A stretch of DNA of 32,923 nucleotides from Candidatus Kapaibacterium sp. (GTDB lineage Bacteria > Bacteroidota > Ignavibacteria > Palsa-1295), in the NCBI GenBank assembly GCA_017882165.1, contig JADGPZ010000018.1:1-32923 (forward strand), written 5' to 3'. Below, piece after piece: positions 1,506-27,268 of this stretch. The notes beneath the pieces are model-generated. The model was not told where the DNA came from, did no database searches, and saw only the letters and a list, made by a program, of their open reading frames with translations. Each line of letters starts with the position of its first letter. Position 1 is the first letter of the stretch. The position numbers and the translations under genes are program-made.

Positions 1506-2296
1506 ATCGTGATCGTTTCCGCAGAGAAGGAGGGGCCATCCATGCACACAAGCCGGAATCGCTTGCCAGTTTTTTGGAACGTCGTGTCATCGGTCGGGAC
1601 CGGACATCCCTGACAAATCCCGATGCCACAGGCCATTTCTGTTTCCAGGCTGACTTCACATGGGATTCCATATTCCGCCGCGAGCACAGCAGCGGCGCGC
1701 ATCATGCCAGTCGGTCCGCAGACGAACAACTTTGGCTGCTCGATCTTACGAGCTTCCAGATCTTTCCGAAGCATATTAATCACGGAGCCGTGAAAGCCTT
1801 CCGAGCCATCGTCGGTTGCGACGTGAAGATTCGTGAGATCTTGCAGCGCGAGCAAATCTTTCGTGCGTGCGCCGTAATAGGACTGGACAGGGAGCCCTTC
1901 CTTCACGAGCGCTCGCGTGAGCAGCAGCATCGAAGCCACCCCAACGCCGCCGATGACAAGCACTGCGGTTTTGAAATCACCCGACTTGTAATTCCACGGA
2001 TTCCCGAGCGGACCCAGAACATCGAGCATCTCGCCCTCGGCGGTGTCGGCAAGGATGTTTGTTCCTCGGCCATGAGCCTGAATGATAATCTCCGCCTCGT
2101 CGCCGTCCGTATTGTACACCGAGAACGGTCGGCGCAACATCGGGTCGATGGCTCCGGCCTTTGGCAAGACATTTACAAATTGCCCGGCGATGGTTTCTCT
2201 CGCAACCTTCGGATTATGGAAGCGGAGGGTCACAAGACCGGGCGCAAGCACGCGGCGGCGTGTGACTCTGGAAAGAGTGGTTGATGGTTCGATCAC
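1502..2296 (-). CDS. pyrK: Dihydroorotate dehydrogenase electron transfer subunit
   Basis: This FAD and [2Fe-2S] subunit carries electrons from PyrD to NAD+. The FAD-binding RPFS motif is at 56-59, the nucleotide-binding GGVG at 116-119 and CGPTGM at 193-198. Four iron-sulfur cysteines are visible near the C-terminus (Cys223, 228, 231 and 251, spaced C-x4-C-x2-C-x19-C), as expected for PyrK. The length of 264 residues is normal. The start is GTG at 2296, overlapping the stop of the upstream lipoprotein gene as GTGA; its own stop overlaps pyrD as ATGA. Both overlaps suggest translational coupling and matched amounts of PyrK and PyrD. Confidence 0.96.
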   Translation of the reverse strand: MIEPSTTLSRVTRRRVLAPGLVTLRFHNPKVARETIAGQFVNVLPKAGAIDPMLRRPFSVYNTDGDEAEIIIQAHGRGTNILADTAEGEMLDVLGPLGNPWNYKSGDFKTAVLVIGGVGVASMLLLTRALVKEGLPVQSYYGARTKDLLALQDLTNLHVATDDGSEGFHGSVINMLRKDLEARKIEQPKLFVCGPTGMMRAAAVLAAEYGIPCEVSLETEMACGIGICQGCPVPTDDTTFQKTGKRFRLVCMDGPSFSAETITI

Positions 2297-4689
2297 TTAT
2301 GCGGTATCGTTAGCGTGGAATCGAGTGGCAGCGGTGGTGGCGAGCCGGGTGTACCCGGCGGCATACCGGGGCGTCCTCTCGGGCCAACCGGTGGCCGCGA
2401 GCGTGGCATGTTCCCTCGCTGGCCGGGTTGTTGTCCCGGCTGCTGGCCGGGTGAATTTAGCATTCGCGGTCCCGGCGGATGCGTTGCGTCCTGTGAGTGC
2501 AGCGTCGGATCGATCGTGGCGGGCGGAGCGTGAGGAAGTCCGCTGGCCGTTTCCGCAAAACGCGGATGCAGCGCGACGGCATACGCTGAATAGGGGTAGT
2601 CGTGCAGGACGCGCCGGTAATAAACGACTGCGCTATCGTAGCGAGTGGAATCTTCATAGCTCAATCCGATCGCATAGAGTGAACGCGGCGCGGCGTCCTC
2701 CTCGAGAAACGCTGCAACGACGGCAAGCAGCGCGGACTTCGCGGCATCGAGTCCATGACCGCGCAGAGTAGCGTATGCGCTTTCGTATGCGGTCTCGCCC
2801 GGCGTGTGCTTGAGCTTCGCTGCAAACAGCGACCGCGCCTGTTCGGCATACATTGTTTGTCCGTAATGCGAAAGCAGATCGTCAAGGAGTGAGTCACCAG
2901 CGGCCTGATTCTTGTCGCGGTATTCGAGTTGCATCAGGGCGTAGATCGCCTGCGCGCGCATTGCGTGAACGGCGGTGTCGGGCTTCGGAAACGAAACGGC
3001 AAGCGCGCCGCTATATTGCGTCTTGGCCTGCGGGCTCTCCGAGAACGTCTCGTAGGCCCGGCCTAATTGATAATGTGCGGTCGCGGCAAGCAAACTGAGG
3101 CTATCAAGCGTTCGGCCTGTATCGGCAACGGCAAAACTTGGTCCGCCCGGCCGCTGTTTCTGGAGATCGGCGAGTGCCTTATCATAATTGAGGGAATCAG
3201 CCTTCGTCATCTCCGTCGGGATCGTCGGATTAAATCGGGGGCCGAGTACCTGCTGCAACGCTTTCAGTTTCAGACTCGACTCCTCGCGGGCCGGACCTTT
3301 CGTCTTGATCCGCTCAATCAGGGAATCGACATGCCCCAGCTCCGTACGCCACTTGGCAAAGCTTGCCAGCGAACTTGCGCGCGCCGAGACGTAGTCGTTC
3401 ATCGCCGGCGTTGAAAAATCCCTGGTGTTGATGAGCATCGCGGCCGCTTTGGCGGCGGAGTCGTAGAGTCCCATCTCCCGGTACATCTCGGCTTGCCGGT
3501 AACGCGAGTGCGCGATCATGAGCGCGCTCGAATTCCGGAACGACGTATCGATCGCAATGTATTCGAGTTGCAAGGCCGGATGATAATCGTTCTTGAATTG
3601 CTTCGAGCGGAGATCGTCCGCGACGTCATGTCGAGCGGCATATTCGTCAGTCAGTGCCAACTCGTATCGTGCCGCCGCTGCGGATGCGCCATACTTCGCC
3701 TTCTCTACAACAGACTTCAGTTCGGTGCGGGCCTCATCGAACTTTGCCTCGCGCCGGAGTGCCTGTGCATGAGCCACATGTGCTTCGCCAGCAAGCCAGT
3801 CGTCCTTTGTGGATGCGATGACCGTCGCGAAGGCGCGCTCGGCCTCCGGCCATTGGGCGTTCATATAATCGAGCGCCCCTTCCTCGAAGGCAAGCTTCGC
3901 GAGGTCTTGACCCGAAAGATTCTCCTCAGCTTTGCGAAGCTCTTCACCAACGGCCGCCAGTGAATCGGGATTCTTCACGTAGATATACTCCGCATACGTG
4001 CGATGGATTTCCGCGAGCGCGTTCTTGTCGCCAGAGGTAGTTGCGCTTCTTAGTCCTGCCGTGAGTGCAATCTCGGCCGTGTCCAAGCGTTTGTCGGCCA
4101 GCATCGAGCGGGCGAGCAGCATCTGCACCTCCGCGCCGTATTTCGTCTCTGGGAATTTGTAGAGTAGCTCCAGGAATTTGCGGCGCGCGCCAGCGAAATC
4201 GTTCTTGTAGTACTGCGACTTTCCGACGACAAAAAGCGCGTCCTCGATATACTTGCTCGGCTTCTTGTCCGCCAGGATTTTCGAGCCGAGTATGATCGCC
4301 GAATCGAGGTGCATATTTGTCACCTCTTTGGTCGAGCCGAGCACGCGAGAAAAACTCGGCGGGATGTTCTGTGTGCGGCCTTCGTAAAGCGCGCGCTGAC
4401 GGAGATCGTACTCCTCATCGAGCCAGCGGTGGTTGGCTACGGCGATGGCGCCGTTCGCATTCGGCGGCACGATGGACCGCTGCTGGTCCTCGTAGAACTC
4501 GAGGTGCTTCTCGGCGAGATACAGCGTGTTGAAGTTGGTCGAGAAGTTGTGCCAGAAGGTACAACCACCCATTGATAGAGCGACAACCAGGAGGCTTAAA
4601 ATACGAATGAGGAATGAGGAATGAGGAGTGGGAATTCCTCGGAATCCACCCTGATTCGTCATTCGTAATTCGTCATTCGTAATTGGCAT
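2293..4689 (-). CDS. Large TPR-repeat outer-membrane lipoprotein, possibly SprE/PorW-like
   Basis: A hydrophobic segment (LIRILSLLVVALSM) ends in a lipobox-like MGGC with Cys43, so the mature protein would be an outer-membrane lipoprotein of ~755 residues. Most of it is alanine-rich helical repeats of TPR type (for example YYKNDFAGARRKFLELLYKFPETKYGAEVQMLLARS around 155-195, quoted here only as a class of repeat). The last ~60 residues are a Pro/Gly/Arg tail with repeated GQQP. The stretch just after the lipid Cys (FSTNFNTLYLAEKHLEF) recalls the N-terminus of SprE/PorW, a T9SS lipoprotein; that is inference, supported by T9SS cargo elsewhere in the window. It is first in the operon with pyrKD. 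The first ~28 codons are made of heptamer repeat DNA, so the original start is uncertain. Confidence 0.72.
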   Translation of the reverse strand: MPITNDELRMTNQGGFRGIPTPHSSFLIRILSLLVVALSMGGCTFWHNFSTNFNTLYLAEKHLEFYEDQQRSIVPPNANGAIAVANHRWLDEEYDLRQRALYEGRTQNIPPSFSRVLGSTKEVTNMHLDSAIILGSKILADKKPSKYIEDALFVVGKSQYYKNDFAGARRKFLELLYKFPETKYGAEVQMLLARSMLADKRLDTAEIALTAGLRSATTSGDKNALAEIHRTYAEYIYVKNPDSLAAVGEELRKAEENLSGQDLAKLAFEEGALDYMNAQWPEAERAFATVIASTKDDWLAGEAHVAHAQALRREAKFDEARTELKSVVEKAKYGASAAAARYELALTDEYAARHDVADDLRSKQFKNDYHPALQLEYIAIDTSFRNSSALMIAHSRYRQAEMYREMGLYDSAAKAAAMLINTRDFSTPAMNDYVSARASSLASFAKWRTELGHVDSLIERIKTKGPAREESSLKLKALQQVLGPRFNPTIPTEMTKADSLNYDKALADLQKQRPGGPSFAVADTGRTLDSLSLLAATAHYQLGRAYETFSESPQAKTQYSGALAVSFPKPDTAVHAMRAQAIYALMQLEYRDKNQAAGDSLLDDLLSHYGQTMYAEQARSLFAAKLKHTPGETAYESAYATLRGHGLDAAKSALLAVVAAFLEEDAAPRSLYAIGLSYEDSTRYDSAVVYYRRVLHDYPYSAYAVALHPRFAETASGLPHAPPATIDPTLHSQDATHPPGPRMLNSPGQQPGQQPGQRGNMPRSRPPVGPRGRPGMPPGTPGSPPPLPLDSTLTIPHK
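4605..4681. repeat. Heptanucleotide tandem arrays, locus 1
   Basis: Three perfect copies of GAATGAG lie at 4605-4625. A second array of four heptamers (ATTCGTC, ATTCGTA, ATTCGTC, ATTCGTA) lies at 4654-4681, forming a perfect 14-bp tandem duplication. Both fall inside the open frame of the TPR lipoprotein, upstream of its signal sequence, and are translated as residues of unlikely biological meaning. The same kind of array occurs at 17737-17764 and 22694-22728. Confidence 0.9.
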
Positions 4690-12729: not shown

Positions 12730-13650
12730 CTACACCGCCGGATTGAACGACAGCACCCGCAGCACATTCGTATCCAGCGCAAAGGGCAGCAGAATGGAAG
12801 TTTCGCCAGTAAGCGTCACATTGCCGGCGAGATAGACTGGAATATCAATCGTGTCGCCGCCGCGAGCGAGGATCGTGCTCTGCTTCATGTACATGTTGAG
12901 CAATACGCTCGTCCCACCCGGCTTCACGACAAGTGTGATCTTGATGCTCGTGTCGATCTGATTGAACTCGTCGTCGGTGAAGTGGTAGTGGATCGTAACA
13001 TCGCGTATGACAGCCGTCTTCGGTTGCAACGTGATGAAGGATGTATCCGGCATTGGCTGGCACGCGCAGTGGTGTGTCGAGACGACCGAATATTCCACTG
13101 GATCAAGACCGACGATTGAAATACTATCGAACTTGCCGTATGAGCAGGCGATGTTTTGGCTATAGACTTGCAAGGAGTCAGGTGCGCATGGATCAAACAC
13201 AAATGTATCCTGCGCGCCCGGGAAAACACGATGGCTAAGATCGAATCGAGGCCCGAGAACACTCGCACTCAATGTGCCATCACCTCCATCGGTAGTCTTC
13301 CACAAACGATAGAATACATTGCTGCCTGAATTGATTAGCGTGTCACTGCAAGCATACACGATTGCACCGTGCCCGACCACTGAGAGATTGTGCACGATGA
13401 GGTCATCACATTCTTGGAAAACTGGCCCAGGAAGGTTAAGTCCAGGAGTCGCCCATATCCGTCGAACGAAGGACGCCATGATTGCTAACGATGTGGCTCC
13501 TGATCGGGGGGTAGATCGCTGATGGAACGTAGAGCGCGCATCGCTTACCATCCATGAATTGGCCCATCTCCCACCCGTGGATCGACGTAGTCCACGAATT
13601 CGACTGCAAATTACCGCGAAGGAAGTCGTTCTCATCTTCCTGGTCTCCAA
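12730..13650 (-). CDS. Middle fragment: end of propeller and beta-sandwich region
   Basis: Only the part from about 13450 downward is meaningful; the residues before that are the shifted frame of the first fragment. It contains one more propeller unit (FYRLWKTTDGGDG) and an Ig-like section (SISIVGLDPVEYSVV, TSIKITLVVKPGG, DTIDIPVYLAGNV) typical of the region before a T9SS domain. It ends at the amber codon at 12730-12732. Confidence 0.6.
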   Translation of the reverse strand: METRKMRTTSFAVICSRIRGLRRSTGGRWANSWMVSDARSTFHQRSTPRSGATSLAIMASFVRRIWATPGLNLPGPVFQECDDLIVHNLSVVGHGAIVYACSDTLINSGSNVFYRLWKTTDGGDGTLSASVLGPRFDLSHRVFPGAQDTFVFDPCAPDSLQVYSQNIACSYGKFDSISIVGLDPVEYSVVSTHHCACQPMPDTSFITLQPKTAVIRDVTIHYHFTDDEFNQIDTSIKITLVVKPGGTSVLLNMYMKQSTILARGGDTIDIPVYLAGNVTLTGETSILLPFALDTNVLRVLSFNPAV

Positions 13651-14512
13651 GTGACGCGACTAATGGGAATACCGAGCAGCTCGACGGAGGGATATACAAT
13701 CCTGGCTCGAACCAATGTCGAAAATTCCAGGCGTTATGGAGTAGTCTTGATTCCCAGTGCCTTCCTCGATCCGTGGAATAGACTAAGTATCCACCGCGAG
13801 TTGAATCAACAATGTCGGGGGAAAGGAGCCAGGTGTCAACGACGGTATCAATGGCAACGGCAGCGACCAAACTGTCGCCATCACCGCAGACATTTGAAAA
13901 GCGAAGCAAGAAGGCTGTAGAATGACCACTGATTTGTGTCATAGAGTCCCATGTCACTCCGCCGTCGTTGGAGAAGTAGAGCGGTCCCTTCGAACTGCCA
14001 TCCTCGTCAGGGCCGACGTCAGCAGTCCCGGCAATAAAGCTTCCTGCCGCGTAGACCGAGCGAAACGAAACTTGAAACGGAGAGACTTTTCTCCATGTGT
14101 TGCCCGTATCGACTGTCTCGTAGATTCCCCCTGGCGTATTTGGAATCGCGAGATTATTCACGATGGCTGCATAACCATGAGAAGGATTGGCAAAATACAA
14201 TTGCCCGATTGGACGCCAGGTGGGATGAGAGGCTGTAGAATCGAAGGATGTGATCGCATTCCAGGTCTTTCCTCCATCTGTCGTACGATGGAGCTGGGGA
14301 TGGCTCCATTCGTCTGAATTGATGACATCGTAGGAAGGACAGAAAATAAAACCGAGATCGCCGTTAAGGAAATAGGGCGTGATTGGTTTATTGCTTACAG
14401 AAGAACCACTCCTGGAAGACCAATCAGTTGGGAGCGGAATCTCCGTCCAATGCTGCCCCCTCGCAGACGATGCGAGACACAAGACCGCAAGCACGAGGAG
14501 GAGCCGCTTCAT
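13436..14512 (-). CDS. N-terminal fragment: signal peptide and BNR propeller repeats
   Basis: The 358-residue ORF has a cleavable signal peptide and at least four Asp-box/BNR units (S-x-D-x-G-x-T-W type), like the propellers of photosystem II stability factor HCF136 and sortilin-like proteins. It ends at a frameshift just after the last repeat and would be released in the periplasm without a sorting domain. Confidence 0.75.
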   Translation of the reverse strand: MKRLLLVLAVLCLASSARGQHWTEIPLPTDWSSRSGSSVSNKPITPYFLNGDLGFIFCPSYDVINSDEWSHPQLHRTTDGGKTWNAITSFDSTASHPTWRPIGQLYFANPSHGYAAIVNNLAIPNTPGGIYETVDTGNTWRKVSPFQVSFRSVYAAGSFIAGTADVGPDEDGSSKGPLYFSNDGGVTWDSMTQISGHSTAFLLRFSNVCGDGDSLVAAVAIDTVVDTWLLSPDIVDSTRGGYLVYSTDRGRHWESRLLHNAWNFRHWFEPGLYIPPSSCSVFPLVASLGDQEDENDFLRGNLQSNSWTTSIHGWEMGQFMDGKRCALYVPSAIYPPIRSHIVSNHGVLRSTDMGDSWT

Positions 14513-14559
14513 GCCATAAAGAACACGCGCGGCGGGCGAAAGTTACAAGGGGCTAGAGT

Positions 14560-14674
14560 AGTGGCACAGCCGTTCTCAGCTGTGAGGTCGATCTTTTAGA
14601 TCGACGCAGCGCAGATTGGCCGAACAATCGCGGACTAAAAGTCCGCTCCCACAGCCGAGAACGGCTGTGCCACT
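14560..14674. repeat. Nested palindromic element with three stem-loops
   Basis: The outer arms 14560-14584 and 14650-14674 (25 nt) are reverse complements with one mismatch. Each arm is itself nearly palindromic around CACAGCCG..CGGCTGTG. Inside lie two small hairpins: GTCGATC/GATCGAC (14587-14605, loop TTTTA) and GCGGACT/AGTCCGC (14630-14646, loop AAA). Their loop regions CTTTTAG and CTAAAAG are complementary to each other. The element fills the gap between the broken T9SS gene and the M50 protease gene. It has the form of a REP/BIME-type or MITE-like intergenic repeat. Confidence 0.88.
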
Positions 14675-14710
14675 GCTGCTGAGTGTGTCGATCAGAAGCG
14701 AGAACTTCCC

Positions 14711-15760
14711 CTATTGCACCACCAGTGGCGATGGCGTGAAGCAGAGCACGAAGATCGCGATTCCGATGTAGCCGATGATTTTGCGGCGCAGGTCCAAAGG
14801 GCTTTCGTCTTCGGTGGGTGGATGATGGAAGCGGATGACGAGCGTCGTGATGATCGCCCACATGAGCCACATCTCTCCGCCGGGGATCATCAATGCTCGC
14901 AGCCAGGCGGGTGGGTTGTCGATGATGAGTAGCGAGGCGGAAGGCAGCGAAATTGCGAAGAGTCCGAGCGCGGTCAGTTGTCCGAGCGTCCGGTGCGTGC
15001 GGCGACCGAAGAGGGTGTAGGTCAGGTGACCGCCATCGAGCTGTCCGACCGGCAGGAGATTCAGCGCGGTCACGAACAACCCGAACCACCCGGCGCAGAG
15101 CATCGGATAGTGGTACATTTCCGTCATCGGCGGAATGTATCCGTTCGGATTCGCGAAGAGCTTCTCCATTGCGGAGTAGAGGAGCGTCTTGCCGAACGTC
15201 AGCTCGACCATGCCGGGTCCGTGGGGCATGTCCGGGTAGCCGGGATGGATCTGCTGTAGGTAGCTGATGCCCGGCAGCGTCGCAAATCCGATGGCCAGCA
15301 CGATGAGGCACACAATGAATCCCGAGATCGGTCCCGCGACTCCTATATCGAACATGATTTTGTTCGATTGCACACGCGATCGCGTGCGGATCACCGCGCC
15401 GAGCGTGCCGAAGTTGATCTGGCCATACATGTAGCCCGGAAACGGGATGTAGTAGGGGAGTGTCGCATCGACGCCATGAATGCGCGCGGCGATGAAATGG
15501 CCGAACTCGTGCGCGGTGAGGAACGCCATGATGAGCGTGGCGTATTCAAGCCCGAGACTCAGGTTCGATATATCACCGAGGTCATGAGCGAGTCCACGCC
15601 ACTGCACTCCTGCAACCGTTGTCGTGAAAAACGCGAGGACAAAGAGCAGGATGTGCAGCCACAGCCGCTGCTTGCCGAGCAGCCGGAAGACCACCCCCTG
15701 CCCCCTCCTTCTTAAGGAGGGGGTGTCTTCCACAATGATTGGGTTAGAGTCCTCGGACAT
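14711..15760 (-). CDS. Membrane-embedded site-2 protease family zinc metallopeptidase (M50)
   Basis: The HExxH zinc motif is HEFGH at 84-88, within a membrane helix (ATLIMAFLTAHEFGHFIAAR), and the second zinc-ligand motif is LNLLPVGQLDGGH (233-245). These are the two signature motifs of intramembrane M50 proteases. Several other membrane helices are visible (WLHILLFVLAFFTTTVAG; FIVCLIVLAIGFATL; C-terminal IGYIGIAIFVLC). No PDZ domain is present, and the length of 349 residues suits the compact family that includes plant EGY-like proteins. The substrate is unknown. The first ~22 residues (DTPSLRRRGQGVV) are encoded by a GC-rich palindromic repeat, so translation may really start at GTG 15694. 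With ATG 15760 it overlaps the upstream gene by 17 nt. Confidence 0.9.
   Translation of the reverse strand: MSEDSNPIIVEDTPSLRRRGQGVVFRLLGKQRLWLHILLFVLAFFTTTVAGVQWRGLAHDLGDISNLSLGLEYATLIMAFLTAHEFGHFIAARIHGVDATLPYYIPFPGYMYGQINFGTLGAVIRTRSRVQSNKIMFDIGVAGPISGFIVCLIVLAIGFATLPGISYLQQIHPGYPDMPHGPGMVELTFGKTLLYSAMEKLFANPNGYIPPMTEMYHYPMLCAGWFGLFVTALNLLPVGQLDGGHLTYTLFGRRTHRTLGQLTALGLFAISLPSASLLIIDNPPAWLRALMIPGGEMWLMWAIITTLVIRFHHPPTEDESPLDLRRKIIGYIGIAIFVLCFTPSPLVVQ
15685..15731. repeat. GC-rich palindromic repeat inside the M50 protease 5' end
   Basis: CCCCCTCCTT (15701-15710) pairs with AAGGAGGGGG (15714-15723) around CTT, and outer arms GGAAGA (15685-15690) and TCTTCC (15726-15731) pair as well. Two heptamers CCCCCTG/CCCCCTC stand in tandem at 15694-15707. 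On the minus strand it reads AAGGAGGGGGCAGGGG just before GTG at 15694-15692, a Shine-Dalgarno-like sequence in a genome that mostly lacks them. Confidence 0.85.
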
Positions 15761-24068: not shown

Positions 24069-25151
24069 TCAAGGATGATTCCCGTTCGTCATCGCCGCCG
24101 CATCCGGAAAGAATACGATCTTCCCGACTTTCTTCGGACTCTCGATCATCATCTCGAAGGCTTCTTCGAAATTGGCCAGCGGCATTTTGTGCGTTACGAC
24201 GGGGCGAACATCTAAGCGGCCTGAAGAGAGCAGGTTCGAGACCGTGAACCACGTGTCCATCATGAGTCGGCCATTGATGCCGTAGAAGCGGCCACCATTG
24301 AAGATGATGTCGTTAAGTGGCGTCGGAACGAGGTTCTCCTTGAAGATGCCGAAGAAGCAATATCGCCCGCCGCGCCGAAGCATCGCGATACCATTCTGCA
24401 TTGCGGATGCAACGCCTGACATTTCGATCACCACGTCCGCGCCAATGCCGCCGGTCGCATCCTTGATGATTTGAACGGCGTCTTCTTTGGCCACATTGAT
24501 GATGCGGTCGGCGCCCATTTGCTTGCCTATGTTGAGTCGGAACGGCTCGATGCCGGTCAGGAAAATCTGCGTGGCGCCCGATGCGCGTGCCACGCCAACC
24601 GAGAAGAGGCCGATCGGCCCATCGCCCAGGATCGCGACGCTCTTGCCATGCACTGGTTCGATCAGCGTGGCATGGACAGCATTGCCGAGTGGCTCCTGAA
24701 TGCTGAGATACTCGGGCGGGATCGAGGTGTCGTTTTTCCAGAGTACGATCTCCGGCACAGCGAGATATTCCGCAAACGCACCGTCCGTATCGACGCCGAG
24801 AATTTTCAGGTTGTGGCAGATGTGCATTTGTCCGGTCATGCATTGCTTGCAGTGCATACACGGAATGTGCGTCTCGACGGATACAACGGCACCATCCTCG
24901 ACGCGAGAGACCATGCTGCCTTTCTTCACCACGATGCCGGTCGTTTCATGTCCGACAGTGTACGGAATGTTCTTGACGCGGGACTGCGCCCAGCCGTCCC
25001 ACTCATAGATGTGTACGTCGGTGCCGCAGAGGCTGGAGGCTTGGACCTTGATGAGGACCTCGTTCGGCTTGATTTCGGGAATCGGAATTTCCTGGAGTTC
25101 GGCTCCGCGCGCGCGTTTGGTCTTGCGGAGTGCAATCATCGTTTCTGGCAT
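24069..25151 (-). CDS. tdh: L-threonine 3-dehydrogenase
   Basis: This zinc-dependent medium-chain dehydrogenase oxidises threonine to 2-amino-3-oxobutanoate with NAD+. Catalytic zinc ligands are Cys42 (LCGTDVHIYEWDGW) and His68-Glu69 (VGHET); four structural zinc cysteines are at 98, 101, 104 and 112. The nucleotide-binding GDGPIG is at 176-181. GTDVHIYEWD, LGNAVH and YGINGRLMMDTW match E. coli Tdh closely at positions that separate it from sorbitol or alcohol dehydrogenases. It is 360 residues including a short extra tail after VFFPD. ATG 25151 is chosen because the upstream extension is not Tdh-like. No kbl (2-amino-3-ketobutyrate CoA ligase) is adjacent. Confidence 0.9.
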   Translation of the reverse strand: MPETMIALRKTKRARGAELQEIPIPEIKPNEVLIKVQASSLCGTDVHIYEWDGWAQSRVKNIPYTVGHETTGIVVKKGSMVSRVEDGAVVSVETHIPCMHCKQCMTGQMHICHNLKILGVDTDGAFAEYLAVPEIVLWKNDTSIPPEYLSIQEPLGNAVHATLIEPVHGKSVAILGDGPIGLFSVGVARASGATQIFLTGIEPFRLNIGKQMGADRIINVAKEDAVQIIKDATGGIGADVVIEMSGVASAMQNGIAMLRRGGRYCFFGIFKENLVPTPLNDIIFNGGRFYGINGRLMMDTWFTVSNLLSSGRLDVRPVVTHKMPLANFEEAFEMMIESPKKVGKIVFFPDAAAMTNGNHP

Positions 25152-25330
25152 GGGAGTGTATGTTTCCTTTCGTAAGCGCCCCTGAACAAGCAGCAGGCGG
25201 CAAGGATTCTGCCCAGAGTAAATTTCGACTCTTGATTGCCAGAGCCGCCTCGAAATCAAATCGTATTCCTTCCGGTTATGGCACTTCCGCGCCCTTTGTT
25301 TGTGGGGATCGTCACCATTATCCTGCATCC

Positions 25331-27268
25331 ATGACCTCAATCATCACGACTCGATTTCGCCATTCGATATTGTTTTTTTCGCTGATTGCGATAGTGCCCG
25401 CGTCGAGTCTGGCGCAATCGTCCGCGCGAATTCAGACCCAAATTGAGCGTTATGTATCACCGTGCCCGGCGGTATCTTCGAAGTTTGCTCGGCCTGCTCC
25501 GTGTCCAGCCATCGTTGGCCGTTCACAGGTGAAACCCGCAGAGATCGCACCGGAGCAGACGCTTTCCATCTACAGCCACGGCGATCCGACCGACGAGGAG
25601 CAGTACATGCTGGAACTCATCAATCGCGCCCGCGCCAATCCGGACTCGGAGGGGATTCGGCTGCAAACGACTACCGACGCAAACATCACGCAGTCCTACC
25701 AATACTGGCAATCGCCAACCCCTGCACAAGTCGGGGCCGATTTTCACACCTATCCGGCCAAACCACCTCTGGCGTTTAACGCCAAGCTCATCACCGCAGC
25801 TCGCGGCCACGACCAGAAGATGATCCAGGTGGACAGCCAATATCATGTTGGTCCCGATGGCGATCCCGGCTCTCGCATATCGAATGCTGGGTACAATGTC
25901 ACGGGCGGTTGGGGTGAGAACGTCTTCGCCTTTGGCAACACTGACATCTGGTATGATCATGCGACATTCCAGATCGACTTCGGCAATCCAAGTCTGGGAC
26001 ACCGCCACAACATTATGAATTTTGATGCTGGTGACATCCTATTCACCGAAGTCGGTCTCGGCATCGTCCATGGTGGAAGCGGTTATCCGCATGTTGGGAC
26101 TGTTCTGACGACTCAGGACTATGGCAACAGGCCCGAGCGCTTCATTCTCGGTGTCGTCTATGTCGACGCGAACCACAATGGCATGTACGATCCCGGCGAA
26201 GGAATTTCCGGAATTACAATCACTGCGAGCGGCGGGCAGTACTCAGCAATGACCTCCACTTCCGGTGGCTATGCGATTCCGTATAGCGGCTCCGGCAGCG
26301 TAATGGTAACTGCATCCGGCAGCTCAATCGGCGGCTCGATCCAGCAGACCATTCAGTTCAGCGGTGATAACGTGAAAGTTGACTTCATCCCATCGACCGC
26401 GTTACAGGTCTCGTTGCTTTCGCCACCTGCCGACACACTGCTGAACACCAGTTCGTTCAACTTCTCGTGGAGTTCCGTGACGGGTGCCTCCAAGTACCGG
26501 ATTCAGGTTGCGACGGATGCCCAAATGAAGAATCTTGTGGTGAATGACTCATCGCTGAGTTCGACCTCGAAGCTTGTCACCGGCTTGAAGGACGATTCGA
26601 CGTATTACTGGCGAGCCCAAGCGAAGACATCATCCGGTTGGGCGCTCTATTCCGGGATCGCTTCATTCAGTGTAATACTTCCACCGGGAGCCGTGACCCT
26701 GCTCACCCCTGCTAATGGTGCAGGTATTGGCTCAGCGGATGCAGCGCTCTCGTGGCGTCAGACTTCGCCGCGTGTCGCGGGATATTGGGTGATCCTTGCC
26801 GACAATAAGGCGCTCACCAATCCGCTCATTTCCGATTCCACGTCTCTCAGCTATCCTTCCGACACCAGCTATAACGCCGGTGCAGGGCAGCTTCAACCAA
26901 GCCAGAGATATTATTGGACCGCTCGCGCCGAAAACGATGGCGGCTGGAGCGCAGTTGGGCAGACCTGGAGCTTCGCTACCGGGACCCTATCCGTAACGGA
27001 TCAGACGCAAAGGGAGTCTGTCACCATCTCACCGAACCCGGCGAACGAGCAGGCAAACTTGGCATTCTCGTTGCCGAGCGACGAGCAAGTCTCGATCCGC
27101 ATCTTCAATAGCTTGGGTGAAGAATTGGCCTCGCAGGAGCTTGGACGTCTTTCCGCCGGAGCGCACAATTGGACATGGAACGCAAGCACGCTTCCAGCCG
27201 GGAGCTACGTTTATGAGCTTCGTGCTGGCGAGCGACTCGATGTGGGGAGAATTCAGTTAGTCAAATAG
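25331..27268 (+). CDS. Secreted CAP-domain protein with Fn3-like repeats and T9SS sorting domain
   Basis: 645 residues. A signal peptide (HSILFFSLIAIVPASSLAQ) leads to a CAP/SCP domain at ~86-265: EEQYMLELINRARANP, then LAFNAKLITAARGHDQKM, GWGENVFAFG (Glu196) and SLGHRHNIMNF, the CAP signatures with the His/Glu pocket. A Cna-B/SdrD-like beta domain follows (GVVYVDANHNGMYDPGEGI, ~273-355), then two Fn3-like domains (VSLLSPPADTLL.., VTLLTPANGAGI..) and a T9SS type A sorting domain (ISPNPANEQANLAFSLPS .. AGSYVYELRAG) at the end. It would be exported through T9SS and attached to or released from the cell surface. The upstream open frame to 25130 is discarded. Its end overlaps the convergent esterase by 8 nt. 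Confidence 0.9.
   Translation: MTSIITTRFRHSILFFSLIAIVPASSLAQSSARIQTQIERYVSPCPAVSSKFARPAPCPAIVGRSQVKPAEIAPEQTLSIYSHGDPTDEEQYMLELINRARANPDSEGIRLQTTTDANITQSYQYWQSPTPAQVGADFHTYPAKPPLAFNAKLITAARGHDQKMIQVDSQYHVGPDGDPGSRISNAGYNVTGGWGENVFAFGNTDIWYDHATFQIDFGNPSLGHRHNIMNFDAGDILFTEVGLGIVHGGSGYPHVGTVLTTQDYGNRPERFILGVVYVDANHNGMYDPGEGISGITITASGGQYSAMTSTSGGYAIPYSGSGSVMVTASGSSIGGSIQQTIQFSGDNVKVDFIPSTALQVSLLSPPADTLLNTSSFNFSWSSVTGASKYRIQVATDAQMKNLVVNDSSLSSTSKLVTGLKDDSTYYWRAQAKTSSGWALYSGIASFSVILPPGAVTLLTPANGAGIGSADAALSWRQTSPRVAGYWVILADNKALTNPLISDSTSLSYPSDTSYNAGAGQLQPSQRYYWTARAENDGGWSAVGQTWSFATGTLSVTDQTQRESVTISPNPANEQANLAFSLPSDEQVSIRIFNSLGEELASQELGRLSAGAHNWTWNASTLPAGSYVYELRAGERLDVGRIQLVK

Follow-up and report, generated by a model that had tools for sequence, protein, structure and literature searches.

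The locus and its predicted fold

The stretch of DNA analysed here (32,923 nucleotides, referred to as the window) contains a palindromic element in a 198-nt gap between two minus-strand open reading frames (ORFs; 13436-14512 and 14711-15760). Its Pfam-supported neighbour is an M50-peptidase gene, and the ORF overlapping the element in the window is out of frame with that gene. Elsewhere in the window, a T9SS sorting-domain protein (25130-27268) and a PorW/SprE-like TPR protein (2293-4689, below the cut-off) suit a Bacteroidetes-type host. No Rfam RNA family matched at gathering score in the window, and plasmid records searched in distant mode gave no match.

Table 1. Features of the window element and of contig C205, which carries a transposase-like gene among copies of the same repeat.
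Feature	Sequence	Position	Strand	Description
Whole element	Window	14560-14674	none	Inverted R dimer with inner hairpins H2 and H1; edges A-GTGG ... CCAC-T
R	Window	14561-14584	+	REP unit: GTGG foot, 8-nt stem halves, TTCT loop; 7/8 pairs
H2	Window	14587-14605	+	Hairpin GTCGATCTTTTAGATCGAC, loop 3 nt
Spacer	Window	14606-14629	none	Separates H2 from H1; small GATTG/CAATC hairpin in this copy
H1	Window	14630-14646	-	Hairpin GCGGACTTTTAGTCCGC, loop 3 nt
R'	Window	14650-14673	-	Second, inverted REP unit; 8/8 pairs
R units (array)	C205	274-375		Downstream of the RAYT-like ORF
RAYT-like ORF	C205	441-971	-	176 aa
R dimer	C205	1014-1117		42 nt upstream of the RAYT-like ORF

The element consists of two inverted REP units around two smaller hairpins and a spacer (Table 1). 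R and the inverted R' agree at 23 of 24 positions, and the arms of the longer inverted repeat (14557-14599 and 14635-14677) are complementary at 84% over 43 nt. The RNA fold of the palindrome reaches -83.6 kcal/mol, whereas shuffled sequences average -44.1 (z -10.85) and none of 200 did as well; the palindrome therefore exceeds chance folding. The small hairpin within the spacer had, by eye, no counterpart in the spacers of the other copies.

With the outer stem and both inner hairpins formed, the predicted energy is -75.3 kcal/mol as RNA and -40.6 as DNA; in this fold the H2 and H1 loops are 3 nt long (TTT and AAA), and CT/AG make up the uppermost stem pairs. The motif CTTTTAG (14593-14599) has an exact complement, CTAAAAG (14635-14641), because the two hairpins carry the same CT-TTT-AG tip in opposite orientation. 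Pairing these two motifs with each other inside the outer stem yields -57.4 kcal/mol (RNA) or -31.8 (DNA), and folding the element as four separate hairpins, with each R on its own, yields -44.5 or -29.4. The initial annotation had described a three-hairpin palindrome with complementary loops and two exclusive folds, one of them a kissing complex. The palindrome, its near-perfect outer arms and the inner hairpins hold up, whereas the exposed 7-nt loops do not, and the second fold is not supported energetically, the cross-paired structure being weaker by about 18 kcal/mol in RNA and about 9 in DNA. The alternative of greater relevance is the one in which each R forms its own hairpin.

Copies in the host genome and its relatives

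The host genome (G000) comprises 3,457,814 bases in 249 contigs. BLAST of the element against it returned 12 places on 11 contigs (29 rows, some of them fragments or opposite-strand duplicates of one place), and a scan for R with at most three mismatches gave 25 matches at 12 places, while the reversed pattern gave none. Eleven of these places are inverted dimers of 96-125 bp (copy edges drawn by hand), two inverted REPs folding into one hairpin as in a REPIN, and the twelfth is an R array on C205, in which three intact R units stand among altered ones. H1 matched 13 times, at all 12 R places and on C76, and H2 matched 12 times, being intact at 11 of the 12 R places and again on C76, a thirteenth place that retains both inner hairpins with no recognisable R. 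On C185 (L017, 1486-1610), a second palindrome-like sequence (CTTGTCCTGAGCCTGCCGAAGG) splits H2, which looks like the insertion of one small repeat into another's hairpin. Spacers are mostly variable, with one of about 14 nt common to C185, C76 and C205b. ORFs of at least 110 codons overlap seven of the 13 listed places, gene calls being limited to the window.

DNA matches to the element were found in four of 61 genomes, all of one genus, and R with at most three mismatches was present in three of 13 genomes of the family (25 matches in G000, nine in G006 and three in G001). A scan of genome contigs with GTRGCACAGSCGTTCTCGSCTGTG identified five stretches in a single MAG (Bacteroidetes bacterium WY3.bin23). 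In some copies of G006, and in the copies of G004, both inner hairpins are H1-like, and in G012 hairpins of the H1 type, footed by GT[AG]G, form a repeat in their own right, at 24 places. At the orthologous M50 gene, six of six relatives were without the element in the 330 nt 3' of the gene, but the downstream gene order differs, so that this lack carries no weight. Neither an insertion polymorphism nor a clean empty site came to light. Target-site duplications were likewise not seen by eye in the flanks of the 13 listed places.

Anatomy and covariation of the R unit

We compared 41 R units from four genomes (25 from G000, 12 from G006 and two each from G001 and G004), one GTGT candidate having been dropped. 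In all 41, GT[AG]G directly adjoins an 8-nt stem whose loop is TTCT, although GT and TTCT were themselves selection criteria, and in foot, stem and loop R corresponds to the published GT[AG]G-type REPs; as the foot is GT[AG]G throughout, R is not a CGTC REP. An A precedes the foot in 41 of 41 units while positions -2 to -10 are mixed, a pattern that marks the edge of the unit. The invariant A possibly belongs to a recognition or target site.

Counting identical rows once left 16 distinct units, in which 93.8% of stem cells are paired. Two-sided changes affect 13 cells, where shuffles average 3.4 and slid controls give 1-2. The covariation score was reached by none of 500 shuffles; the count of pairs with two-sided change was reached by 38 of them and the pair-type count by 152, and one control of this test can be exceeded through relatedness alone. 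On C246 and C199 each arm has 8/8 pairs though the arms agree at only 22 of 24 positions, and in G004 the arms agree at 16 of 24 with 8/8 pairs in each. Since these arms diverge yet each keeps its pairs, the single R hairpin, and not just the long stem, is maintained. Against this stand the arms on C116, each of which lost one stem pair, and the incomplete R stem of the window copy.

A RAYT-like gene flanked by R

Reading the DNA between the R copies on C205 revealed a RAYT-like gene with R on both sides (Table 1). Its protein carries the motifs MPDHVH and YILYNP and, judged by model and profile matches, the HUH/Y1 fold with REP-transposase signature of a RAYT, although its score against the RAYT model NF047646 (E 8e-22, 77.7 bits) is 2.3 under the curated cut-off of 80; the match to PF01797 is weak (15.9, cut-off 23). 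NF047646 matches seven of seven aligned homologues, and a profile built from the C205 protein and six homologues leads to the E. coli TnpA-REP 4ER8 (E 7.9e-16), with IS200-type transposases next at 0.001 or weaker. The stretch WQDERFDRIIR aligns with the foot-reading stretch of 4ER8, and its D and R occupy positions for which PMC6006769 gives D and sometimes R in subclasses 2.5 and 2.7. By chance, 0.0025 of the 12 places would be expected within 100 bp of one such gene, a figure to be multiplied by about six for the RAYT or Y1-type genes of the genome, and R here lies on both sides of the gene.

A PF01797 search of the host genome gave five genes, none of them near R, and missed the putative cognate gene because its score is below the model cut-off. 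Four other Y1-type transposase genes in the host genome (L020 on C154, L021 on C153, L022 on C43 and L023 on C125) are each bracketed by their own distinct inverted palindrome pair, and the genome thus appears to hold several REP/RAYT families; the fifth Y1-type gene, L024 at the contig edge of C39, has no palindrome pair. In the C205 array (L015, 188-424), the outermost R-like units have part of the stem replaced by CCCGCCGCGGCGGG, and the inner R units repeat every 39 bp.

The closest homologue of the C205 RAYT (70%) is found in the congener G006, on C201; three R units lie upstream, and about 51 nt separate the nearest from the start codon. On another G006 contig, C98, one R lies downstream, and the end of C98 is identical to C201 over 126 nt, as it would be if assembly had split a single gene. 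In two species, judging from these contigs, the same REP flanks a RAYT-like gene on both sides, as expected of a cognate RAYT. In G007, G005 and G003, all six homologues that were inspected sit between inverted palindromes of other sequence, and by eye GT[AG]G lies beside the hairpin at each. G001 and G004 contain R-like units and no close homologue of the C205 RAYT (best E 2.7e-12 and 1.0e-19). The initial annotation had guessed at something BIME-like and had proposed searching for further copies and for a RAYT; with 12 genomic places and the same repeat on both sides of a RAYT-like gene, the guess is borne out, and the isolated chance structure that it would have accepted had no other copies existed can be set aside.

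Interpretation and alternative explanations

We interpret the element, with a probability of roughly 0.87, as a REPIN/BIME-like non-autonomous miniature element made of two inverted REPs around a structured spacer, the RAYT on C205 being the probable cognate transposase of R. Its anatomy and gene association agree with the sequence criteria for REPs and REPINs in the available portions of PMC6006769, PMC3116915 and PMC3733652. Against this reading, 12 places are few for a REP family. The C205-encoded RAYT would recognise the foot and hairpin of R in single-stranded DNA, such as the lagging-strand template, and cut beside it via the HUH/tyrosine site, after which the R dimer would be copied or moved elsewhere. 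The effect at the window would be secondary, namely a stable hairpin in RNA running from the M50-peptidase gene toward the next gene.

The element could also be a nested composite of two REP types, with the outer R serving the C205 RAYT and the inner H1 derived from a sister REP type, in which case cuts in the dimer could fall at both of the nested hairpins and two enzymes might be involved. We regard this as possible but doubtful. At seven of the 12 R places in the host genome, GTGG stands two nt before H1, formed by the R end and the base that follows it; in G007, a homologous RAYT lies between copies of a hairpin resembling H1, CACGGACTCTTAGTCCGTG, which has a GTGG foot; and of the 24 matches to the H1-like hairpin in G012, 10 of the 12 rows shown are preceded by GT[AG]G. 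However, H2 has no such foot, five of the 12 places lack GTGG before H1, and no RAYT match was found in the 92%-complete genome of G012, which speaks against a simple nested version.

That the element serves the host as RNA, either ending transcription or shielding the 3' end of the M50-peptidase transcript, is improbable as its main explanation, even though the fold is very stable and lies in an intergenic gap. The single terminator-like match inside the element (minus strand, 14664-14643) takes the H1 loop as its T-run with no T-tract following the stem, and an intrinsic terminator was rejected on this ground; such matches number four in the region against 2.0 in shuffles. Moreover, the copies are alike in sequence, not in structure alone, and bracket the RAYT-like gene. 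A host role may exist on top of the mobile-element nature.

Still less probable is a classical MITE whose terminal inverted repeats would be acted on by a DDE transposase. A length of about 115 bp, perfect terminal inverted repeats and repeated copies would suit it, but the flanks of the 13 listed places are, by eye, free of target-site duplications, the R stem covaries within one arm, as expected of a hairpin read in single-stranded DNA, and the gene that R flanks resembles a RAYT and not a DDE transposase. Finally, an RNA switch, in which the inner hairpins kiss or refold to one long cruciform, draws on the exact complementarity of the two motifs and is hardly credible, being rejected on energy (-57.4 against -75.3 kcal/mol) and having 3-nt loops of A/U only, while the H1-like inner pairs of some G006 copies and of the G004 copies make the complementarity a by-product of inversion.

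Comparison with known systems

In E. coli BIMEs, other motifs lie between two inverted REPs, and the REPIN/BIME-like element described here shares this layout. Its R stem is perfect, without the mismatch bulge required by the E. coli enzyme as described in the available text of PMC8266576. As in the REPINs of Pseudomonas fluorescens SBW25 (PMC3116915, available part), an inverted REP pair with ends more conserved than the spacer forms a long hairpin, and a specific RAYT nearby and compensatory changes are shared as well, as may be the extragenic spread. The present element differs from these REPINs in occupying 12 places, which is far fewer, in its length of about 115 nt against a 71-bp end distance for GI, in having two constant hairpins within the spacer and in its mostly GTGG foot.

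The GTAG-tagged REP families of PMC3733652 share the GT[AG]G foot, 8-bp stem, 4-nt loop and inverted dimers, and in the same source, as far as its available text goes, most GTAG-20 elements of O. terrae have GTGG, dimers with structured spacers are noted, and GTAG repeats are listed for Proteobacteria, Cyanobacteria, Chloroflexi and the PVC group, not for Bacteroidetes. The GTGG foot is within the published range: the accessible part of PMC6006769 describes REPs as GTAG or GTGG placed 0-2 nt 5' of a 7-20 nt stem with a 2-5 nt loop, and a Marinomonas system is reported in part of PMC8266576 to have a GTGG substrate cut at CA, less efficiently, or at CC. The CGTC-3 REP dimers of A. tumefaciens (PMC3733652, same portion) have two distinct stem-loops at the spacer ends, 20-23 bp apart, compared with 24 nt in the present element, but differ in their CGTC foot and in having no dedicated transposase known according to that text, whereas the present element combines GT[AG]G with a RAYT-like gene. 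Since dimers with two spacer stem-loops have already been described there, this composite form, though uncommon, is of a known kind.

The C205 protein resembles TnpA-REP/RAYT subclass 2.7, as presented in the available sections of PMC6006769, in DHVH, WQ, D plus R and GT[AG]G REPs flanking the gene, and differs in having YILYNP instead of YI[LR][NQ]NP, the subclass being assigned by motif only; Bacteroidetes are named in those sections among the hosts of subclasses 2.4 and 2.6. The element is real and ordinary in kind, a new example of a known element type, and with it an uncultured, little-studied Bacteroidetes-type lineage gains a family of GT[AG]G REP dimers together with a probable cognate RAYT. 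The homologous RAYTs across the family, each with its own bracketing hairpin, provide material for studying how hairpin and transposase change together.
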